Origin: Strigamia acuminata
Taxonomy: Eukaryota > Arthropoda > Chilopoda > Geophilomorpha > Linotaeniidae
NCBI GenBank assembly: GCA_949358305.1
Contig: OX442314.1
Location: 1,925,087-1,989,086 of the forward strand
Length of the DNA stretch: 64,000 bases
Direction of reading: 5' to 3'
Position 1 is the stretch's first letter, and each line of letters starts with the position of its first letter. Position numbers and translations under genes: made by a program. Shown here in pieces: positions 990 through 62,230 of this stretch. A model generated the notes under the pieces. It was not told the DNA's origin. It saw only the letters and a list, made by a program, of their open reading frames with translations, and did not search any database.

Positions 990-1113
990 AATTGTGATGT
1001 GTTTGTGCGTGTGAGGACGATTTGTGAGCGAGTTTAACCGGGGCGAAGTTTTTGAGTGAATAATACATCGCGACCTTCTCAAGGACGTGTGCGGTGATTC
1101 ATACGAGTGCGCC

Positions 1114-4100
1114 ATGTCGGTTATCGGCAAAATTGGTGAGTTTGACGAAGCAAAAGAGGAATTTTATCTGTATATTGAGCGTGTAAAACATTTTTTCACT
1201 GCGAACGCGATTAAAAGCGACGTGCAAACTTCCACGTTGATGGCGGTAATGGGCCCCGCCACGTACAAACTTTTAAGAAACTTAATGCAGCCAACGGAAC
1301 CCAAGGACTGGACAATGGATGACATTATAAAAAAATTATCTGATCACTACAGGCCTGCCCCAATAATTATTGCTGAACGTTTCAGATTTTTGAAGAGAGA
1401 CCAGCGCGTCGGTGAATCGGTGGCGGCGTACATTGTGGAGTTGAGGCGTTTGGCTTCGACGTGCAACTACGGTACCTTTTTGGACGAGGCCATTCGCGAT
1501 AAATTTGTGTGTGGTTTGGCGTCAGAGGCGACACAAAAACGATTACTGGCGAAAAAGGATTTGAAATTGGCGGACGCTTTGGACACAGCGGCTGCCATGG
1601 AGATGGTCGACCACGACACAACAGAGTTGAAGGTGCCAGTGGCGACCGTGAGTAAGGTGGAAGGAGGGCGCCCTTTTAGGCAAAAATTCGAAAGAAACAA
1701 GGAAAAAAGAACATGTTTTCGTTGTGGTTTTAATCATTCAGCGGATAAATGCAAATATATCGGCGCAACTTGTCATTCTTGTGGAAAGATGGGCCATATT
1801 TCTCCGGTTTGCAGGTCGAGACCGAGCAAGGACGTCAGCATGGACAAGCAGACGTTTCGTGGCGAACCAAAGTTCACAAAGAAGGTGGCTGCGCAGGAAC
1901 CGGAGGAGGATGACAAATATGCGGTTTTCGAGATGTATCCGGTTCATTCGATTGGAAAGTTGGGTAATTGTAAAAAATACGTTGTTCCTGTGTGCATTGC
2001 GGACGCGCCCATCGAGATGGAGCTGGATACGGCGGCGGACGTGACGGTTGTCGGCGGAAAGTGGTTCAGAGAGAATTTTCCTAATGTTGTTTTGGATCCG
2101 TGCCGTATAACTTTGCTCTCATACAGCGGTGACACGGTGGAAATTGATGGCCAAACTGAGGTGGTGGTTACACACGAAGGAGGGAAGTATACCTTGCCTT
2201 TGGTCGTGGTGAAAGGTGACCGCCCGGGCCTTTTTGGCCGAAATTGGATTAAGGAGGTAAAATTGGATTGGAAAAATATTTTTACAGTGATGAACGTGGA
2301 AGTCCCGGATAAAGAAACCACAACTATAGAGGATTTATTAAGGAAGTACGCATCTCTGTTTGAACCAAATAAGGAGCCGATTAGGAATTTTAAGGCGACC
2401 ATCAAATTGAAGAAAGATGCAAAACCGGTTTTTTGTAAACATCGCCCGGTCCCCTATGCTTTGAAGGCAGCTGTGGAGGCCCAGATTCAGCGGCATTTGG
2501 ACGCGGGAATTTGGGAACGTGTGGAGCATTCGAAGTGGGCGACACCATTGGTTAATGTCGTGAAACCGAACGGATCAGTGCGATGTTGCGGCGACTTCAA
2601 GATAACGGTAAACCCACAATTAGACATTGATCAATATCCTTTACCTACCCAACAGGACATATTTGCGACGTTGTGCGGTGGCGAGGAATTTTCGACCGTA
2701 GACTGTTCGGATGCGTATGAACAGATCGAATTGAGCAAGCAGGCCCAGGAAATTCTAACTTTGAACACGCACATGGGTTTGATGCGCCCTAAGCGTTTGG
2801 TATACGGGTTTGCGGGAGCGTCCGGCATTTTTCAGCGGGCGATCGATTTGATCATTCAGGGAGTGAAGCGCGTGGTGGCGTTTCAGGACGACACGATGAC
2901 CACCGCGCCATCGAGACCCGAACATTTGATGGGTTTGGAAAATCTTTTCGAGCGTTTTAAGAGAAATAACGTGTGCCTCAATCGAAAGAAATGTAAATTT
3001 TTGCAGAAGAGGATCAAATACCTGGGGCACATTATAGACAAAGAAGGCATTCATCCCACGACAGAAAAAATTGATGCAATTAGCAAGGTGCCATCACCTA
3101 AGAACGTGTCGGAGTTGCGTTCTTTTCTCGGATTGTTGAACTACTATTGTAAGTTTTTGAGGGGGTTATCAACTAAATTGGCCCCTTTGTACAGTTTGTT
3201 GCAAGATAAGGTCGAATGGGATTGGTCGGAGACGTGCGAGCAGACTTTCCAGCAATGCAAGAACGCACTGACGTCCGAGGCGGTGCTGGTGCATTACGAC
3301 GTGGGTAAGCCGCTTCGTTTAACGTGCGACGCGTCGCCTGTGGGCGTTGGTGCTATTCTGTCGCACATCATGCCGAATGGCGAAGAGCGCCCCGTAGGAT
3401 ATTCATCCCAGACTCTAACTCAGGCTCAACGGGGTTATCCACAAGGGGAAAGGGAAGCTTTGGCAATTGTGTGCGCGGTCCAGAAATTTTATCAGTATTT
3501 GGTGGGTAGGGAGTTCACCTTGGTTACGGATCATTTGCCGTTGGTCGCAATTTTCGGCGATAAACGGGGTATCCCGACTTTGGCGGCCGAGCGCATTCGT
3601 CGGTGGGCATTATTGTTGTCGACTTTTCGATACAAAATCGAGTACAAGAAGGGAAGCGAGAACATAAACGCAGACGTTTTATCCCGCATGCCTGTGACGG
3701 ATGGTGTTGTCGGCATCGAATCGCACGTATTTAAGTTGTCGTTCATCGACGACATACCCATTGTGGCGAAAAACATCAGCGCCGCAACTAGAACCGATAG
3801 GATTTTGGGGTGCGTGATTCGTTATATCGAGAGCGGATGGCCCGGAAGCGTTAAGGATCCGGAGCTCTTGCCGTTTTCGCGTCGGCGTGACGAATTGTCC
3901 ATTGACAGCGGATGCATAATTTGGGGAATGCGTGTAGTTATTCCAGTTAAATATCGACCCCATATGTTGGACCTTTTGCACGACACCCATTCCGGTATGG
4001 TAAAGATGAAGTCGATAGCGCGCGCTTTTGTTTGGTGGCCGGGTTTGGATGCGGAAATTGAGGACATCGCAAGGAGATGCCATGCTTGTCAACAGTGTCA

Positions 4101-5124
4101 GGCCGACCCTCCGGAGGCGCCATTCAAATCATGGTCATGGCCATCCGGTCCCTACGAGAGAGTGCACATTGATTTCGCGGAGTTGCGAAAGGTGCATTAT
4201 TTGATCATGTACGACAGTTACTCCAAGTGGATTGACGCCATACCGATGACAACAACCACGTCCGAGCGGACCATAGAGGTTCTGCGTTGGAGGTTCGCGG
4301 ATTTTGGGGTGCCGGCTGAAATAGTGTCGGACAACGGACCCCAATTTTCTTCTGCCGAATTTGCGACGTTTTTAAGCCTGAATGGAATCAAGCAGACGTT
4401 GGTGCCAGCGTACTATCCGGCCACCAACGGAGCTGCGGAGAGAGCGGTCCGCACTTTCAAGGATTCGCTTGAGCGAATGCTGACCGACGATAGGGACAGC
4501 ACGACGACGAGTCATAAGATTGCGAGATTTTTATCTCGTTACCGTAACACGCCGCATTCAGTCACTGGTAAGACCCCCGCTGAACTTTTCATTCGCAGGA
4601 CTGTGCGTACCCGTTTGTCTTTGGTGAGACCGGACGTTAGGCGCCACGTTCACGAGCAGTTGGACAAGATTCACACCACGCAGACGGGACGCCAGGCGCG
4701 AGTTTTTGAGGTTGGACAGTCGGTGTGGGTAAAGAGGCACCACATTCGTGGCACCGAATGGACACGTGGAACCGTGCAATCGATTCAAAGTTCAAGGACT
4801 TATGTAGTGGTTTGCGGCACAACATCTAGAACGTTTCACGTGGATCACGGGACGCATCATAACACCCCGGCTTACGGGGGGGAGACATTTCAACACGATG
4901 ACGGTGCGGACGAGGAAGACGTCGTTGTGCAGAACGCGCAGCCGATGCCGGAGGTACAGGGCACAGAAGCCGAGGTGAACCCCGCACCAGAACCGCACGA
5001 GGTTCAGCGGGCGGTGCCCCATCAGGAGGATAATGCCCCAGACCGGGAGAACAACGCGGAGCCGAGGCGTGCGGACTTGCACCCAAGAGAGACATTACAG
5101 AAACCGAAAAGACTAAATTTGTAA
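1114..5124 (+). CDS. Gypsy Gag-Pol polyprotein (retrotransposon)
   Basis: The frame gives 1336 residues from the first ATG at 1114; it is also open a little upstream without an ATG. Two CCHC zinc knuckles lie near residues 201-245, the aspartic protease motif LDTAAD near 303, the RT catalytic motif VAFQDD near 589 and the RNase H motif TCDAS near 738. The integrase HHCC zinc-binding module is near 955-995, followed by a DDE core (IDFAE, SDNGPQF, ERAV). An acidic, proline-rich tail follows. Gag and pol are fused in one frame with no shift or stop, so all catalytic modules would be made as one precursor. The protease has DTAA where most elements have DTGA or DSGA. Every expected motif is present, so the element may be autonomous. 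Confidence 0.95.
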   Translation: MSVIGKIGEFDEAKEEFYLYIERVKHFFTANAIKSDVQTSTLMAVMGPATYKLLRNLMQPTEPKDWTMDDIIKKLSDHYRPAPIIIAERFRFLKRDQRVGESVAAYIVELRRLASTCNYGTFLDEAIRDKFVCGLASEATQKRLLAKKDLKLADALDTAAAMEMVDHDTTELKVPVATVSKVEGGRPFRQKFERNKEKRTCFRCGFNHSADKCKYIGATCHSCGKMGHISPVCRSRPSKDVSMDKQTFRGEPKFTKKVAAQEPEEDDKYAVFEMYPVHSIGKLGNCKKYVVPVCIADAPIEMELDTAADVTVVGGKWFRENFPNVVLDPCRITLLSYSGDTVEIDGQTEVVVTHEGGKYTLPLVVVKGDRPGLFGRNWIKEVKLDWKNIFTVMNVEVPDKETTTIEDLLRKYASLFEPNKEPIRNFKATIKLKKDAKPVFCKHRPVPYALKAAVEAQIQRHLDAGIWERVEHSKWATPLVNVVKPNGSVRCCGDFKITVNPQLDIDQYPLPTQQDIFATLCGGEEFSTVDCSDAYEQIELSKQAQEILTLNTHMGLMRPKRLVYGFAGASGIFQRAIDLIIQGVKRVVAFQDDTMTTAPSRPEHLMGLENLFERFKRNNVCLNRKKCKFLQKRIKYLGHIIDKEGIHPTTEKIDAISKVPSPKNVSELRSFLGLLNYYCKFLRGLSTKLAPLYSLLQDKVEWDWSETCEQTFQQCKNALTSEAVLVHYDVGKPLRLTCDASPVGVGAILSHIMPNGEERPVGYSSQTLTQAQRGYPQGEREALAIVCAVQKFYQYLVGREFTLVTDHLPLVAIFGDKRGIPTLAAERIRRWALLLSTFRYKIEYKKGSENINADVLSRMPVTDGVVGIESHVFKLSFIDDIPIVAKNISAATRTDRILGCVIRYIESGWPGSVKDPELLPFSRRRDELSIDSGCIIWGMRVVIPVKYRPHMLDLLHDTHSGMVKMKSIARAFVWWPGLDAEIEDIARRCHACQQCQADPPEAPFKSWSWPSGPYERVHIDFAELRKVHYLIMYDSYSKWIDAIPMTTTTSERTIEVLRWRFADFGVPAEIVSDNGPQFSSAEFATFLSLNGIKQTLVPAYYPATNGAAERAVRTFKDSLERMLTDDRDSTTTSHKIARFLSRYRNTPHSVTGKTPAELFIRRTVRTRLSLVRPDVRRHVHEQLDKIHTTQTGRQARVFEVGQSVWVKRHHIRGTEWTRGTVQSIQSSRTYVVVCGTTSRTFHVDHGTHHNTPAYGGETFQHDDGADEEDVVVQNAQPMPEVQGTEAEVNPAPEPHEVQRAVPHQEDNAPDRENNAEPRRADLHPRETLQKPKRLNL

Positions 5125-5607: not shown

Positions 5608-5613
5608 TTTATT
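5608..5613 (-). terminator. Polyadenylation signal of Prp8-domain gene A
   Basis: AATAAA on the minus strand, 17 bases past the stop codon. The same signal in the same context follows the second copy (14795-14800), so both genes have kept a usable 3' end. Confidence 0.7.
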
Positions 5614-5629
5614 GGTTTATATTAATTAA

Positions 5630-6472
5630 TTAAAAGATGTTTAAGAAATCTGCTTTGATGAAACTAAACACGATACACACAAGAATAACGAAAACAAATC
5701 TAGTCGGGCTACCGAGAATTTCCCGGTGGCCTGTGGCCCGTCCTTGACCCTGTGGCCAGAACCATCCAGATTTCTCGGTACTTAATTTGTCCCCAGTCCA
5801 GCTCTGGTTGGCTATAAATCCGTGGAGTTGGCTGAGGGCTTCGGTCCATCCCTCCTTTGTGAACGTGGGCCAAATGTGGTGTGCTTCGATCGGACTGAGC
5901 ACGACAGACATGCGCTCGTTGTCGTTGCTACAACGCAGCCCCGTCAAGATGAGACTGAGACGCCAGAAAGCGGCGTTATGTGAAATGGTCTTCAACCAAT
6001 CGTCGTAAAGGTTGAGAACGACCATTTTCGCTTCGCTGGCTCCGTTGATCAAATCATCAAACTGACTTACTTCAAACAACGCTTGGAAATATAATTGCAC
6101 TTCGTACGCCTTCACCTCGATGACGATGTCGGGCAAATCGCGCAAATGCTTTCGCAACGGCTCGAACGCTCCTTTGCGGGAAACGACAATCCGTTCGGGT
6201 CGTTCCTTCGCCGGCAAAGAACGGATGAGTGCGGACACTTGTTTCGCCGTTTCCCATTTCGCTAGTTCGGGTGAACGTTGTTTATAAGCCGCCCAGTCGG
6301 ACGCGTGAACAATTTTCAAGAATAATTGTCCGGTGATCGAGTTGAAAATGTAAATGGCGCCGTTGATCGGGATAGTCGTTAAATTTCCTTCTGCAGTTCG
6401 GTGCGTTTTGACCCTATAAGCACAAGTGTCGTCGACAAACCAACTAATTTCGTGTGTCAATGAGAAATCCAT
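5630..6472 (-). CDS. Stand-alone Prp8 RNase H-like domain protein, copy A
   Basis: A single-exon frame of 280 residues. Residues about 8-230 follow the RNase H-like domain (domain IV) of spliceosomal Prp8 almost without gaps: WFVDDT near residue 11 (the aspartates that bind metal in Prp8), then EGNLTT, TGQLFLKI, AKWETA, NLYDDWLKTIS and HHIWPTFT. Prp8 itself is about 2300 residues, with large, RT-like, endonuclease-like and Jab1/MPN parts; none is present here. The domain stops after the HHIWP region and is replaced by a glycine/proline-rich linker and a hydrophobic C-terminus (about 15 residues, then K-x-DFLNIF). A close second copy lies at 14814-15656. Lack of introns in an intron-rich region suggests an origin by retroposition; loss of introns is the alternative. 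Function unknown. Confidence 0.85.
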   Translation of the reverse strand: MDFSLTHEISWFVDDTCAYRVKTHRTAEGNLTTIPINGAIYIFNSITGQLFLKIVHASDWAAYKQRSPELAKWETAKQVSALIRSLPAKERPERIVVSRKGAFEPLRKHLRDLPDIVIEVKAYEVQLYFQALFEVSQFDDLINGASEAKMVVLNLYDDWLKTISHNAAFWRLSLILTGLRCSNDNERMSVVLSPIEAHHIWPTFTKEGWTEALSQLHGFIANQSWTGDKLSTEKSGWFWPQGQGRATGHREILGSPTRFVFVILVCIVFSFIKADFLNIF

Positions 6473-6527
6473 AGTTGGGTGTCAGTCGAAGCGTCGGGCT
6501 CTTAATAACCACAGATTGCTCTTGTGT

Positions 6528-6537
6528 CTTTTAAATA
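6528..6537 (-). promoter_or_regulatory. TATA-like box of copy A
   Basis: TATTTAAAAG on the minus strand, 56 bases upstream of the start codon. The box and the 45 bases after it are conserved in copy B (15730-15739), although the adjoining leader differs by insertion. Confidence 0.55.
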
Positions 6538-6639
6538 GTCATAAATGACACGCAGAGGACTCGTATATCAAAACGTTGCACACACGTCCATTCATTCGAT
6601 TATCTCGCAAAACAGTCGGCAGATTAAACGTTTGAATTG

Positions 6640-14339: not shown

Positions 14340-14794
14340 GAGTAAACTTATTGAGCGACAGCTGACGAGTGTTCGTATTACTTAGGTTTTAGGTACCTTG
14401 ATGACTTAGGCGCCTTTTCCACCGGAAAAGGATGCAGATAGAGCTAACTAATCGAGTGAAGGATAATGCCAATCAGAACCGAGAAAACATGCGAGAGACT
14501 ACAGTAGTTCTGAGTGGACAGCCATAGAATTTCTCAAAAAATGTCCGTGATTAAATGATCTCTGGAGGGGTTGGCGACGACAAATATTTATCAAAGTAAA
14601 ATTGTTTCCAACAAAAAATCTCACTACAGATATCATCAAATGTAAAATAAACAGAAGAATGAGAGATAAATAAATAAAATTGCTGGAAATTTTTTTAAAA
14701 GGAAATGAAGTTAATTAGTTTATCCTGGAAGCGCCATTTTGTATAAAATTAAATCCCAAAATCGCAAGCATTCTGAATAAATAGATTTTAATTC

Positions 14795-14800
14795 TTTATT
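14795..14800 (-). terminator. Polyadenylation signal of Prp8-domain gene B
   Basis: Minus-strand AATAAA, 14 bases past the stop, in the same context as in copy A. Confidence 0.7.
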
Positions 14801-14813
14801 GGTTTATATTCAA

Positions 14814-15656
14814 TTAAAAGATGTTTAAGAAATCTACTTTGAGGAAAATACACACGATAGACACAAGAATTACGGAAACAAATCTAGCCGATCTAGTTGG
14901 TGGCAGTGCTGGAGCTGGACTGACCCGTAGCCTGTCCCCGTGGCTCGACCCATCCAATTTGTCCCCAGTCCAGCCCTGGTTGGTGGTCTTGTTGACTATC
15001 AATCCGTGGAGTTGGCTGAGGGCTTCGGTCCATCCCTCCGCTGTGAACGTGGGCCAAATGTGGTGTGCTTCGATCGGACTGAGCACGGCAGACATGCGCT
15101 CGTTGTCGTTGCCAAAATGCAGCCCAGTCAAGAGGAGACTGAGACGCCAGAAAGCGGCGTTATGTGAAATGGTCTTCAACCAATCGTCGTAAAGGTTGAG
15201 AACGACCATTTTCGCTTCGCTGGCATTGTTGATCAAATCGTCAAACTGACGTAATTCAAACAACGCTTGGAAATATAATTGCACTTCGTACGCCTTCACC
15301 TCGATGAGGATGTCGGGCAAATCGCGCAAATGCTTTCGCAACGGCTCGAACGCTCCTTTGCGGGTAACGACAATCCGTTCGGGTCGTTCCTTCGCCGGCA
15401 AAGAACGGATGAGTGCGGACACTTGTTTCGCCGTTTCCCATTTCGCTAGTTCGGGCGAACGTTGTTTATAAGCCGCCCAGTCGGACGCGTGAACAATTTT
15501 CAAGAATAATTGTCCGGTGATCGAATTGAAAATGTAAAAGGCGCCGTTGATCGGGATAGTTGTTAAATTTCCTTCTGCAGTTCGGTGCGTTTTGACCCTG
15601 TAAGCACAAGTGTCGTCAACAAACCAACTAATTTCGTGTGTCAATGAGAAATCCAT
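14814..15656 (-). CDS. Stand-alone Prp8 RNase H-like domain protein, copy B
   Basis: Intronless, 280 residues, about nine-tenths identical to copy A by eye. It keeps WFVDDT, TGQLFLKI, NLYDDWLKTIS and HHIWPTFT. The domain part differs from copy A by scattered substitutions, many conservative. The linker after residue 235 differs by insertions and frame changes, yet the last 25 residues return to the same pattern: RFVSVILVSIVCIFLK then DFLNIF. Return of the same tail after a divergent linker suggests the tail is under selection. The two genes share promoter and 3' flanks, so they come from a block duplication rather than two retroposition events. Jab1/MPN and all other Prp8 parts are missing. 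Function unknown. Confidence 0.85.
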   Translation of the reverse strand: MDFSLTHEISWFVDDTCAYRVKTHRTAEGNLTTIPINGAFYIFNSITGQLFLKIVHASDWAAYKQRSPELAKWETAKQVSALIRSLPAKERPERIVVTRKGAFEPLRKHLRDLPDILIEVKAYEVQLYFQALFELRQFDDLINNASEAKMVVLNLYDDWLKTISHNAAFWRLSLLLTGLHFGNDNERMSAVLSPIEAHHIWPTFTAEGWTEALSQLHGLIVNKTTNQGWTGDKLDGSSHGDRLRVSPAPALPPTRSARFVSVILVSIVCIFLKVDFLNIF

Positions 15657-15729
15657 AGCAACACAAGTGAGTGATGTTGTGTGTCAGTCGAAGCGTCGGG
15701 CTCTTAATAACCACAGATTGCTCTTGTGT

Positions 15730-15739
15730 CTTTTAAATA
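15730..15739 (-). promoter_or_regulatory. TATA-like box of copy B
   Basis: TATTTAAAAG on the minus strand, 74 bases upstream of the start codon; conserved with copy A. Confidence 0.55.
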
Positions 15740-16012
15740 CTAAAAAATATCGAAACGTTGCACACACGTCCATTCATTCAATTATCTCGCAAAACGAGAC
15801 ATTCCGATAACCAGTTTGTGCCATTTATTTTCCAGTTTATTAATTGATGATGATTATTATTATAACTGCGAAATAAAACTTTAATTTTTTTCAAATTTAG
15901 TTCTATTTTAGATTTGTTTTTCCCGCGGTAGTTTCGCCGCCATGTTTTGGCTCGGACAATAGCTCCGCCTGGTGGCGATAATCGCCAGTTGAATACATCT
16001 TTTGTGGTTGCG

Positions 16013-16821
16013 ATGACATTGATCATGGCAAACGGAGACGTAGCGGAGATTTTGGACTTGCTGTGCAGTCCCAAGAAGCTGGAGAGAGACAGAGCGATAC
16101 CGAGCCTGGAGAAATACATCGAGGTGGCGAGTCCGAAGGAAATCGAGACTTTGGGCGACACGCTCATCCGTCACGCCGAGAATTCCGACCCGACTTGGGA
16201 GATGCGCAACTCGGCCATGCTCGGCTCCAAATGTTTGCTCGTTCACATGCATTCCCACGACAAATACGGCGAAGAATTCGCCAAGGGGATTCGGATCCTC
16301 GCCCTGCGACTTCTCACCGACGACGAAGTTCGCGTGCGAATGGCGGCGGGTCTGTTCAAAACAATTTAAAAACATTTAATTAACTTATTTTTTATTTTTC
16401 TTTTCTTTTCTAAACTAAATGTTTAACTTGCTCGAATTATTACAGAGCACTTCAATCGATGGTGGACGGTTGCGGCCAACGGTTTGAGGAGTACATGACT
16501 CAAGAACTCGTCGACCTCATCTTCGAGAGTTTGTCGCATGCGAATCGTTTTGTCCGCGAGACCGGCTTCGGCGTTCTCTCATCCCTCATCTGCGGCTGCG
16601 CGCTCGAACAGACGGCGGACGGCGATCCGGCGTCGCTCACGGAATCGAGCCCGATTTTCCGCTTCGGCCACCAGTGTGTCGGGCTGACAGACAATTGGAG
16701 CCAGCATGTGCCTTTGGCGGCCGCCGTGGCCACGAGGAAGTTTCTGTCGAGCGTCGGCGAACACACCAAACAGGCGTTCTACCCGGAAAGAGAAATCTAT
16801 AGAAATCGGGCAAAATTGTGA
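16013..16821 (+). CDS. Partial HEAT/ARM-repeat protein gene
   Basis: The first exon starts at 16013 or 16025 (MANGDVAEILDLL) and encodes two or three HEAT-like helical pairs ending RVRMAAG near 16350. A second coding block (16447-16785) has MVDGCGQRFEEYM, HANRFVRETGFG and GEHTKQAFYP, patterns I associate with an uncharacterised eukaryotic HEAT-repeat family. The join is uncertain: a weak donor after 16349 and an acceptor at about 16448 would keep the frame but skip the segment that normally links the blocks. After FYP the frame runs into unrelated AT-rich codons and stops at 16821, so the usual C-terminus is missing. It is a truncated gene, a pseudogene, or a gene with exons I could not find. 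A YY1-like CCGCCATGTT motif lies at 15938-15947. Confidence 0.5.
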
Positions 16822-18971: not shown

Positions 18972-38939
<19,968 letters not shown>

Positions 38940-59009: not shown

Positions 59010-62000
59010 ATGATGGATTGGACAATGGCACCTCTAAAGAGTAATGGAAATTATTGCAGTGCCTGCAAAAACTGCCAAAGGATTGGTTCAAAGAAATCTT
59101 TTTTTAGGTTTCCCAAGGATACAAATAGGTATAAAACAAATTTTAAAAATGTATTTATAAAACCTGTGCAATAAAAGTTGAATAGATTAAAAAGTTACAT
59201 TATTTGATTAAATTTGTCTCAAATATTTGTATCATAGTAATTAATTTTATTTATAACATTATCTGCTAGATGTAAAAATTGGGTTCAATATTCACGACGA
59301 GACGATCTGGCTAAAAAAGAATCTACATACTTATACACACATAATCGGCTATGTGCAGACCATTTTGAAGATTCACAATTTATGAATGCAAACCTAAAGT
59401 AAGTTACAAGTACAGTTAGCAACAACTTCAACTTCATAACTTTCCTTTTGGTTATTTTTCCGTAAGTAAGCTCTGATACGTTATAAAGTAGATGAACACA
59501 GAGAAATATTACTTTTTCATCATCAAACCAAATCAAAAAATGCTAATGAAATGATGAAATTTTTTTACAACAGTTTTAGCAATTTTAATAATGTTTCATT
59601 TTTATTAGAAATAAATTGGTGCATGATGCTGTGCCAACACTTTTTGATGTACCCAATCCACCACCGAAAATAACATTAAAAAGGCCAAAACGAGACCGCT
59701 CATTGCAAAATATTGGTGGAAACAAACAGAAAAAAATTAAGGTTTTTATTTCAATTTATTTTTGCAAAAAGCAATCTTACAAGTTCTTTCGAAATAGGTT
59801 TGTAAAATCGTCTCAGATGACCATCAAGCTTCAACTTTAACTTCAACCACAACTGCATCTAGCTGTAGTCAGCTGTCTTGTGATGTTTCATTAGATCATC
59901 CAGAAACTTCAAATGTGCCTGATAATGAAACTTCAAATGTGCCTGATAATGAAACTTCAAATGTGCCTGATAATGAAACTTCAAATGTGCCTGATAATGA
60001 CACTGCAAATGAAATGGAAATTAGTACTGAGAATGCTGCAAGTGACTGCACTCCCAGAAAATTTCAACTGCAATGCCAGCTAAATAATGAGAGATGCAAA
60101 ACATCAATGTATCGCAAAACAATACGGGAGTTGCAGACTCAGGAGCACAAAATAACGAATGAAGAACTTATAAGAGCACTCAGAAAAAAGTTACCATCAC
60201 ATTCTGCAGACTTCATTGAATCTCAGCTCGAAGCATGTGGCAACAAACCAAAAGGAGTAAGATGGAAAACATCGGTAAAGCAGATTTCTTTGGCTTTACT
60301 GTATGCCAGTAGTAAAGCATACAAAATATTCAAGTCGATGTTTGCTACACCTGATGAACAGACACTGTCACGAGCTGTCGATTTATTCCCAGCCGGACCA
60401 GGTATTAACAATGCACAGATAATTTTTTTAAAGAAAATGTCAACAAATATGACTGTGGACAAAGAAAAGGTCATTAGTTTGTGTTTTGATGAAATGTCTC
60501 TCCATGCAAACCTGTATTATGATGAATTCCAAGACATAATCCACGGCTACACGCAATATACCAACAACGGCGTATCACCTGCTCTACATGTTCTATTGTT
60601 TGTAATGTCTGGGTTGTATGGAAAGGCATGGAAACATCCCATCGCTTATTACTTTACAGGAAACAGTATGGCAAACACTGATTTTGAAGAAATCCTGTAT
60701 GAAGTGATTGCTGCCATAACTGATTGTGGATTTCATGTCATTAATATTACTTGTGACATGGCAAGCAGAAATGTTGCATTGACAAAGCGATTAGGTGTGT
60801 CCAAGGAACAACCTTTTTTGATACATAATGGGAAAAAGATTTTTTGGATGTTTGATCCACCTCATCTTGTTAAGTGTTTTCGCAATAATTTAAAGAAGCA
60901 CCCATTGGATACAGGTAATGGTATTGCTAAGTGGGATCACATCATTAAATTTTATGAATCAGACATAAAGTCTGAACTCAGACTTGCACCAAAAATATCT
61001 GATAAGCACCTCACATTACCTGCCTTTACCTCAATGAAAGTGAAATTGGCTACGCAGGTACTAAGTCACACAGTTGCAGCGGGAATGTTCACTGCAACAT
61101 CTTTGCCTAATTCTGGTGTGCCAGCTGATGCAGTTACAACTGCAATATTAATTGACCGTGTAGATCAATTGTTTGATTGCATGAACAGTGTGAGCTTAAA
61201 AGACACGAAAGAAAAACGCCGTGCAATTACCTCAACTTCTAGTCATTTTAAATTTTTAGAAGAAACATTGGCACTTATAAACTCTTGGAAATTTTTAAAT
61301 GTACGCAGTCAACCACCATCATTGTATGGATGGAAATTAACTATAAATTCAGTTTTGCAGCTTTGGAAGGAATTAGAAACACGTTTCAACTATAAATTTA
61401 TAATGACTAGAAGACTAAACAAAGATAGTGCTGAAAACCTGTTTTCTATTGTGAGGCAAAGCAGTGGTAACAATGTAAATCCAACTGCAAAACAGGTGGA
61501 GGCAATAATGAAAAACATTGTTATTTCGGCATTGCTAAAGCCATCTGCTGGTGCCAATTGCCAGGAAGATGGTTTAGAATTTTTTCAGTTGTTAAAAGAA
61601 TTCGGAAAAAATGATCCCACTACAAGCAACACAGTTACCAACTTCAATGAGTCCTCTGTTGCATCATTTTGTGATGAAAAATCATCACAAAATGATGACA
61701 ATATTCCAGATGATGGAATTTTAGATAAAGAAAAATTGGACATGCTAACTCATGATTCACATTCAAATGCAGTTGCCTATATAGCTGGATATATTATTAT
61801 GCGAGTAGAAGAAAAACATAATTGCCCAAATTGTTTATGTCAGATTAAGGATAGTGACGAGTTGTCTAATGACTCGCAATTGTTTCAGCTATTCAAAGCG
61901 TTTCAAACTGCATCAAGTAATCGGTTTGGTTCCCCTAAAATTTCCCTTAAAGTTCCATCAAAAAAATTTATTTCATATTTAAATTACTGCGAAAACATTT

Positions 62001-62230
62001 TTTTAGATTCCTTTCCAACAATTAAGACACTACCTGATGTAAGATTAAATTTGAAAAAAAAAATTGAAGTTTATCCTCAACAGTTTGATTTATGTGCAGG
62101 CGTAAATGAAACAATCCTCACATTATTTTTGCAAATACGCATTAAACATGCAATAAAATTAGAAAACAGCATGATTACGCAGAAACCTAGAAAAGCAAAC
62201 AGAAAATTAAATAACATAACTCACAAATGA
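59010..62230 (+). CDS. THAP-domain P-element-type transposase (THAP9-like)
   Basis: Exons: 59010-59128, 59270-59398, 59609-59741, 59873-62230; phases agree, 912 residues, close to the length of THAP9. The N-terminal THAP zinc finger is complete: YCSAC, FFRFP, NW, LCADHF and the AVPTLF box. A four-copy repeat of a 7-residue ETSNVPDN unit starts exon 4. The catalytic RNase H-like part has LCFDEMSLH, CDMASRN (GTP-binding insertion region follows), DPPHLVKCFRNNL and MTRRLNKDSAENLFS, with acidic residues at the expected places. A zinc-finger-like CPNCLC region ends the protein. No stop or shift anywhere. I could not find terminal inverted repeats, and the gene shares a 205-bp head-to-head upstream region with the SLC35A gene. 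It is either a recent, intact element or a domesticated gene. Confidence 0.9.

Follow-up and report, generated by a model that had tools for sequence, protein, structure and literature searches.

A family of free-standing, probably retroposition-derived copies of the Prp8 RNase H-like domain

Prp8 is commonly taken to be indivisible and encoded by a single gene copy, and its RNase H-like domain (domain IV) is regarded as non-nucleolytic. Retrogenes and chimeric young genes are characterized by an intronless copy of a multi-exon parent, a promoter of their own, a fusion that supplies the start codon and coding sequence made by a transposon. A contact of the Prp8 domain with Aar2 is known from PDB titles. 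PMC8894380 describes the RNase H-like domain as able to regulate BRR2 and cites a paper on the inhibition of Brr2 loading by this domain; PMC11208138 has it contacting the U4 Sm core and moving during activation. Among the literature titles listed, which do not establish absence from print, none points to a paralogue or retrogene of Prp8 or to a domain IV that stands alone; one of these papers concerns a Drosophila Prp8 disease model and mentions truncated Prp8.

The window analysed here, the whole stretch of 64,000 nucleotides, lies on contig C1 of a 237.5 Mb assembly. The COX1 sequence marks the host as an arthropod, perhaps a centipede: its best match is the geophilomorph centipede Mecistocephalus marmoratus (84%), closely followed by horseshoe crab (83%). 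The window holds two intronless open reading frames that had been picked out in a sequence-only reading of the DNA, which did not mention their strand:

5630 to 6472, minus strand: open reading frame of copy A, 280 aa, of which residues 6-220 are the Prp8 RNase H-like domain (domain IV)
14814 to 15656, minus strand: open reading frame of copy B, 280 aa, with the same architecture as A

The plus strand is crowded with stops at both loci. The B protein is 82% identical to A (tblastn), and the DNA is 96.5% identical across the 660-base domain. Both copies stand above the curated cut-off of 25 bits for the Pfam family PF12134 (PRP8_domainIV), A over profile positions 14-228 of 230 (E 5e-68, 229.6 bits) and B over positions 14-230 of 230 (E 4.2e-68, 229.8 bits). 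A Pfam scan of A and B at E<=1 returned PF12134 alone and no second family, bearing out the claim that they encode domain IV and no other Prp8 domain; the combination of PROCN, U6-snRNA-binding, RNase H and Jab1/MPN domains in one chain, by which Prp8 proper is recognized, is present in neither. The WFVDDT motif is kept in both, as had been stated. By sequence, the best PDB match to A is human Prp8 domain IV (E 1e-70). An AlphaFold2 model of A, computed from an input of 42 relatives, places 98 of the 280 residues at pLDDT >=90 and 103 at 70-90 (mean 76.1), with linker and tail at low confidence, and a Foldseek search with this model ranks human PRP8 RNase H chains at the top (TM 0.90 by target length and 0.72 by query length, 55% identity). 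In this predicted structure, A adopts the same RNase H-like fold as the experimentally solved domain of Prp8. The earlier observation of two free-standing reading frames for domain IV is confirmed.

A profile search of the genome for PF12134 gave 22 matches, which correspond to three exons of the true Prp8 and, in our grouping by coordinates, to 18 other copies, one of them with two matches. The true Prp8 is a multi-exon gene on contig C9 with two introns within domain IV, and all three PROCN and both U6-snRNA-binding matches of the genome are found there. Because this sole multi-exon Prp8 found lies on a different contig, A and B are not pieces of a nearby Prp8, and their origin as fragments of a neighbouring full gene is ruled out, in line with the earlier expectation. 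Identity of the copies to the Prp8 of their host is 47-56%, and reaches 70% in L009. Ten of the 18 are open across the domain stretch: A, B, a third near copy (C) 7 kb past the end of the window, L009, L011a, L011b, L013, L014, L015 and L017. In two of these, L011b and L017, the C-terminal half of the domain is incomplete, and the start codon is altered in L013 and present in its sister L014. The domain unit of L013 (4421-5258 of that locus) is flanked on both sides by a direct repeat of about 70-90 bases. The remaining eight copies are relics, either short or, in five cases, stop-bearing, and the family therefore decays readily. The sequence-only reading had missed copy C, the rest of the family and its relics, as well as the promoter link between members and the C-terminus built by a transposon that are described below.

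Around copies A to C, several other features were noted. Copy A is adjoined by a 1345-aa open reading frame (1087-5124, plus strand) with retrotransposon reverse transcriptase, RNase H and integrase domains. A segmental duplication common to B and C spans the window around 14600-16800 and positions 2320-5551 of L010, comprising about 1.8 kb at 93% identity and 366 bases at 89%. Pfam gave no match for the reading frame at 15911-16375, and the divergent reading frames beside C are HEAT-repeat-like by eye. Further along the window, dynein heavy chain exons run on the minus strand over about 19273-37011, from N-terminal region 1 to the C-terminal domain (nine of ten reading frames scanned), and a 771-aa reading frame with TNP-like RNase H and P-element-type transposase domains lies at 59915-62230 on the plus strand.

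Database searches over about 5.8 billion proteins revealed no relative closer than Prp8 among the matches listed (the best 120 of 148 and the best 120 of 539). The top scorers among them are Prp8 or pieces of Prp8 at 55-56% identity, rising to 63% over short parts. Many short database matches are single-exon or intron read-through gene models and were excluded from the count of free-standing genes. A viral origin was also considered and set aside: viral contigs held no relative (55 stretches fit a pattern, none of them confirmed), and no viral structure matched at E<=0.001.

Phylogenetic analysis points to one origin for the open copies. In a maximum-likelihood tree of 34 rows, whose bootstrap is not fully settled, all ten lie on one side of a branch with 97/97 support and form a single clade; of the 24 rows set against them, one is the Prp8 of the host, 14 are Prp8 from elsewhere and 9 are further short proteins, the 23 from outside the host being hand-picked. 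The relics, L016 and seven others, were left out of the tree and of the codon models. Within the family, L011a, L011b, L013, L014, L015 and L017 form clade 2 (support 100/99), and the grouping of L009 with A, B and C is weak (83/61). None of the ten open copies has an intron in the domain, the loss expected of a processed copy, and a reverse-transcribed Prp8 message is therefore the likely source. The structure of L009 additionally shows how such a copy acquired a start. It begins MNSSCADQIVWYVDDT, and its DNA corresponds to Prp8 SYKMNSSCAD followed directly by Prp8 QIIWFVDDT, with about 146 codons (counted on P0004) absent between them; the number of codons ahead of the I-x-W of the domain is the same in A, B and C as in L009. 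The start codon of L009 is thus the Prp8-internal methionine of SYKMNSSCAD, fused to the domain. What the family is and how it arose, as free-standing domains derived by retroposition, can be put forward with high confidence.

The copies differ in the residues that they retain. D1781, T1800 and R1865 (human numbering) are named in PDB titles, and D1782 and T1783 we take to be metal-site residues of Prp8. All five are kept in A, B, C and L009; retention in clade 2 is 3/6 for D1781, 1/6 for D1782, 5/6 for T1783, 1/6 for T1800 and 0/6 for R1865. The hairpin stretch has a 3-residue gap in L009 and is missing or replaced in clade 2, where the alignment is uncertain. A predicted structure of the clade-2 member L014 (mean pLDDT 82.3) contains the RNase H core and no hairpin strands, and matches human PRP8 at a TM of about 0.8.

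Both A and B were said to have a TATA-like box and an AATAAA signal. These are present at each locus, and the TATA element of A turns out to be common to distant members of the family:

6515 to 6552, minus strand: core promoter-like element of A, CGTGTCATTTAT..TATTTAAAAGACACA..GCAAT, common to the distant members L011b and L017
15717 to 15739, minus strand: TATA-like element of B, TATTTAAAAGACACAAGAGCAAT, with the TGTCATTTAT half missing
5608 to 5613, minus strand: AATAAA of A, read from the sequence
14795 to 14800, minus strand: AATAAA of B, likewise

Counted from the first base of the ATG, the motif TATTTAAAAG is 56-65 bases upstream in A and 74-83 bases upstream in B; counted from the first base of the stop codon, AATAAA begins 19 bases downstream in A and 16 bases downstream in B. 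Upstream regions were compared in 36 pairs, with 500 single-base shuffles each. The score of A against L011b, over the whole of CGTGTCATTTAT..TATTTAAAAGACACA..GCAAT, was reached by 0/500 shuffles, as was that of A against L017 over the first part; for A against L011a the count is 6/500. Matches of B and C to the clade-2 promoters are weak (4 to 10/500), the upstream half being lost in both, and L009 attains 0/500 against L017 alone, by one point. With at most one mismatch, the clade-2 form of the promoter occurs at four sites genome-wide, and all four are upstream of family members, two at L017, one at L011b and one about 495 bases upstream of L011a; four further sites with three mismatches compare with three for a reversed control. 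For the A/B/C form, the 24-mer TTTAAAAGACACAAGAGCAATCTG, the exact genomic sites number three, those of A, B and C, and a single additional site has three mismatches. A and part of clade 2, which have a TATA promoter in common, were therefore duplicated at the DNA level, promoter included. The upstream region common to L014 and L015 differs from those of the other copies. A repeat shared by L014, L015 and L016 stands directly ahead of the reading frame, and its end resembles, by eye, a polyadenylation signal and a splice acceptor; a captured repeat promoter may be the driver of these three.

Beyond the domain, the frames of A and B continue into a linker and a hydrophobic tail:

5705 to 5806, minus strand: remnant of a hAT-like mini-transposon in the A frame (linker); of 41 genomic matches to the A unit, 35 are confined to this stretch, a lower bound with 40 of 279 candidates scored
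14904 to 14978, minus strand: remnant of the same mini-transposon in B, with the 8-base direct repeat CCACCAAC at 14979-14986 and 14896-14903
5630 to 5704, minus strand: hydrophobic C-terminal tail of A, reconstructed as former 3' untranslated sequence
14814 to 14888, minus strand: hydrophobic C-terminal tail of B, as in A

Alignment of the A linker with six genomic matches resolves it as a mini-transposon, the genomic copies of which have terminal inverted repeats CAGGGCTGGACTGG...CCAGTCCAGCACTG, and in B and C an 8-base target duplication, CCACCAAC, is found on both sides. Inverted repeats, an 8-base duplication and many copies (35 further matches) are the features of a hAT-type element, and hAT is presumably the appropriate superfamily name. 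When the element is removed in silico, the frame of B and C ends in ...VNKTTN-stop at 226 aa, near the lengths of other members; the right transposon end is deleted in A, and the empty site is read in B and C, not in A. As reconstructed, the insertion ran past the original stop codon in all three copies and thereby added both linker and tail, the tail being former 3' sequence and accidental. It has a hydropathy of 2.5-2.6 (19-residue window) and is modelled as a low-confidence helix. Its origin as overrun 3' sequence makes it a weak argument for a membrane anchor, and a functional tail anchor was not retained as a candidate, though A, B and C all read the tail in frame.

The explanation preferred overall, which we place midway between doubt and confidence, is that of retroposition-derived free-standing domains that are possible trans-acting competitors of Prp8's own. 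Its components differ in strength. Copies A, B and C probably are functional proteins; competition in trans is a tentative proposal, and mimicry of a spliceosomal domain is the leading guess as to what such proteins might do. If they are made, A, B and C, with their metal-site residues kept, could stand in for or compete with the Prp8 RNase H-like domain at one of several candidate docking sites, namely Brr2/U4-U6, the U4 Sm core or the assembly factor Aar2, and splicing or U5 assembly would be modulated wherever they are expressed. The clade-2 proteins, with the hairpin missing or replaced, might compete for protein contacts only or may have drifted to another role. A broader picture is more doubtful still, in which a family with its own promoter, with branches that keep and branches that lose the metal site, and with a mixture of constraint and diversifying selection would turn detachable core-domain copies into a means of tuning splicing.

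These proposals have to be weighed against slow decay of a retropseudogene family, in which a founding retrocopy was duplicated along with repeats, the copies still open have escaped damage so far, and A and B make no useful product. In favour of decay are the eight truncated or broken copies among the 18, a linker that accommodates a transposon, the position of L014, L015, L016 and L019 amid repeats, and an A lineage so poor in substitutions that its frame stays open by chance in 0.58 of simulations. The earlier statement that the mild substitutions between copies all point to functional genes is too strong in this respect, with a one-omega model giving 0.57 for A/B/C, not distinguishable from 1 (p 0.15); the corresponding value for six members of clade 2 is 1.04 (p 0.77), and that for the A/B/C tips in a branch model is 0.595 (p 0.165). 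Constraint is indicated by the older branches and the indel-free domain, and both speak against decay. Omega is 0.385 on the A/B/C stem (p 0.0035) and 0.32 on the clade-2 stem (p 0.005), with 0.64 for a four-member clade-2 subset (p 0.016) and 0.42 for L009 (p 0.118). Under neutral substitution, the chance of a stop-free A/B/C stem is 0.005-0.026; single-lineage chances (L009 0.03, L014 and L017 0.05 each, L015 0.08, L011b 0.14, L011a 0.45) are not fair independent tests because the copies were chosen as open. In the domain, A-B, A-C and B-C each differ at 23/660 bases with no indel. Outside it, identity is 65-76% for the gapped linker, 87-94% for the 5' flank and 68-98% for the 3' flank, and gaps occur in seven of the nine comparisons of these three regions; the tail is gap-free at 89-95% identity. 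A further point against decay is that A and some clade-2 members have retained a common core promoter. Long-term constraint on the stem branches is thus moderately supported by the codon models, recent constraint on A and B is undecided, and decay as an account of the whole family appears somewhat unlikely.

A functional family that acts away from splicing would fit a different part of the data, and it is less probable than decay. It might be a fast-evolving conflict family, for example a decoy or RNA-binding factor directed against a virus or mobile element, or a factor specific to reproduction. Copying and loss have been repeated, and in clade 2 the hairpin and metal site have changed with the fold still predicted for L014. 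Site models with an omega >1 class are preferred for clade 2 (p 3e-7), for the ten copies (p 2.7e-5) and for A/B/C (p 0.008), and remain so once columns no more than three positions from a gap are excluded (three sets at p 0.003-0.005; 0.0034 on 99 columns). This strict filter keeps 99-120 columns, with 2-3 sites per set above 0.9 posterior, and one of the strict tests omits L015 and L017; few sequences, old divergences and uncertain alignment can moreover inflate such tests. Gene conversion is possible, the A, B and C pairs all being 23 bases apart though B and C share longer flanks. Diversifying selection is accordingly a hint only, because gene conversion and alignment can mimic its signal, and the Prp8 residues kept in A, B and C also count against a role in conflict. 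The suggested nuclease role, which would have to be regained, is very improbable. An RNase H fold with a kept metal-site motif is compatible with it; the residues inspected are those of Prp8 itself and lend it no support, and the motif is largely lost in clade 2.

If expressed, the preferred trans-acting domains would constitute a natural counterpart of the isolated domain studied in vitro, and a comparison of the branch that keeps the hairpin with the one in which it is changed or lost could separate RNA-handling from protein-docking roles. The family also illustrates clearly how a gene can be made from a single domain, via a retrocopy, an internal deletion that gives a start, a portable promoter and a C-terminus rewritten by a transposon.

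Compared with the Prp8/PRPF8 RNase H-like domain (PDB 3enb, 4jkc, 7pjh), A, B and C share the fold, a full-length match, WFVDDT, the hairpin strands, T1800 and R1865; the family differs in being free-standing, with its own start codon, promoter and C-terminus. The nearest parallels are short domain-IV proteins of 278-293 aa with little beyond the domain, namely P0074 and P0079 from Symbiodinium, the MMETSP transcript P0269 (293 aa, labelled complete) and P0077, a possibly incomplete protein from a contig of 1,049 bases. These Symbiodinium-type proteins, a name that rests on two Symbiodinium records, keep D1781, D1782, T1783, T1800 and R1865 as A, B and C do (read by eye). Unlike the family, they extend into the stretch past the domain; they are 67-71% identical to their host's Prp8 and form a clade of their own (100/100) apart from the arthropod copies. 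This separate placement suggests a second release of the same domain, and they appear to be an independent case. The short domain-IV proteins P0267, P0272 and P0258, one of them from the plant Castilleja, have T1783 changed or the hairpin stretch shortened, and may be further releases. Set beside retrogenes in general, the family matches their intronless, promoter-bearing, fusion-started and transposon-extended structure and differs in that it consists of a single domain of a core spliceosome scaffold present in 18 copies. It is a real and unusual family, and a variant of domain retrogenes.
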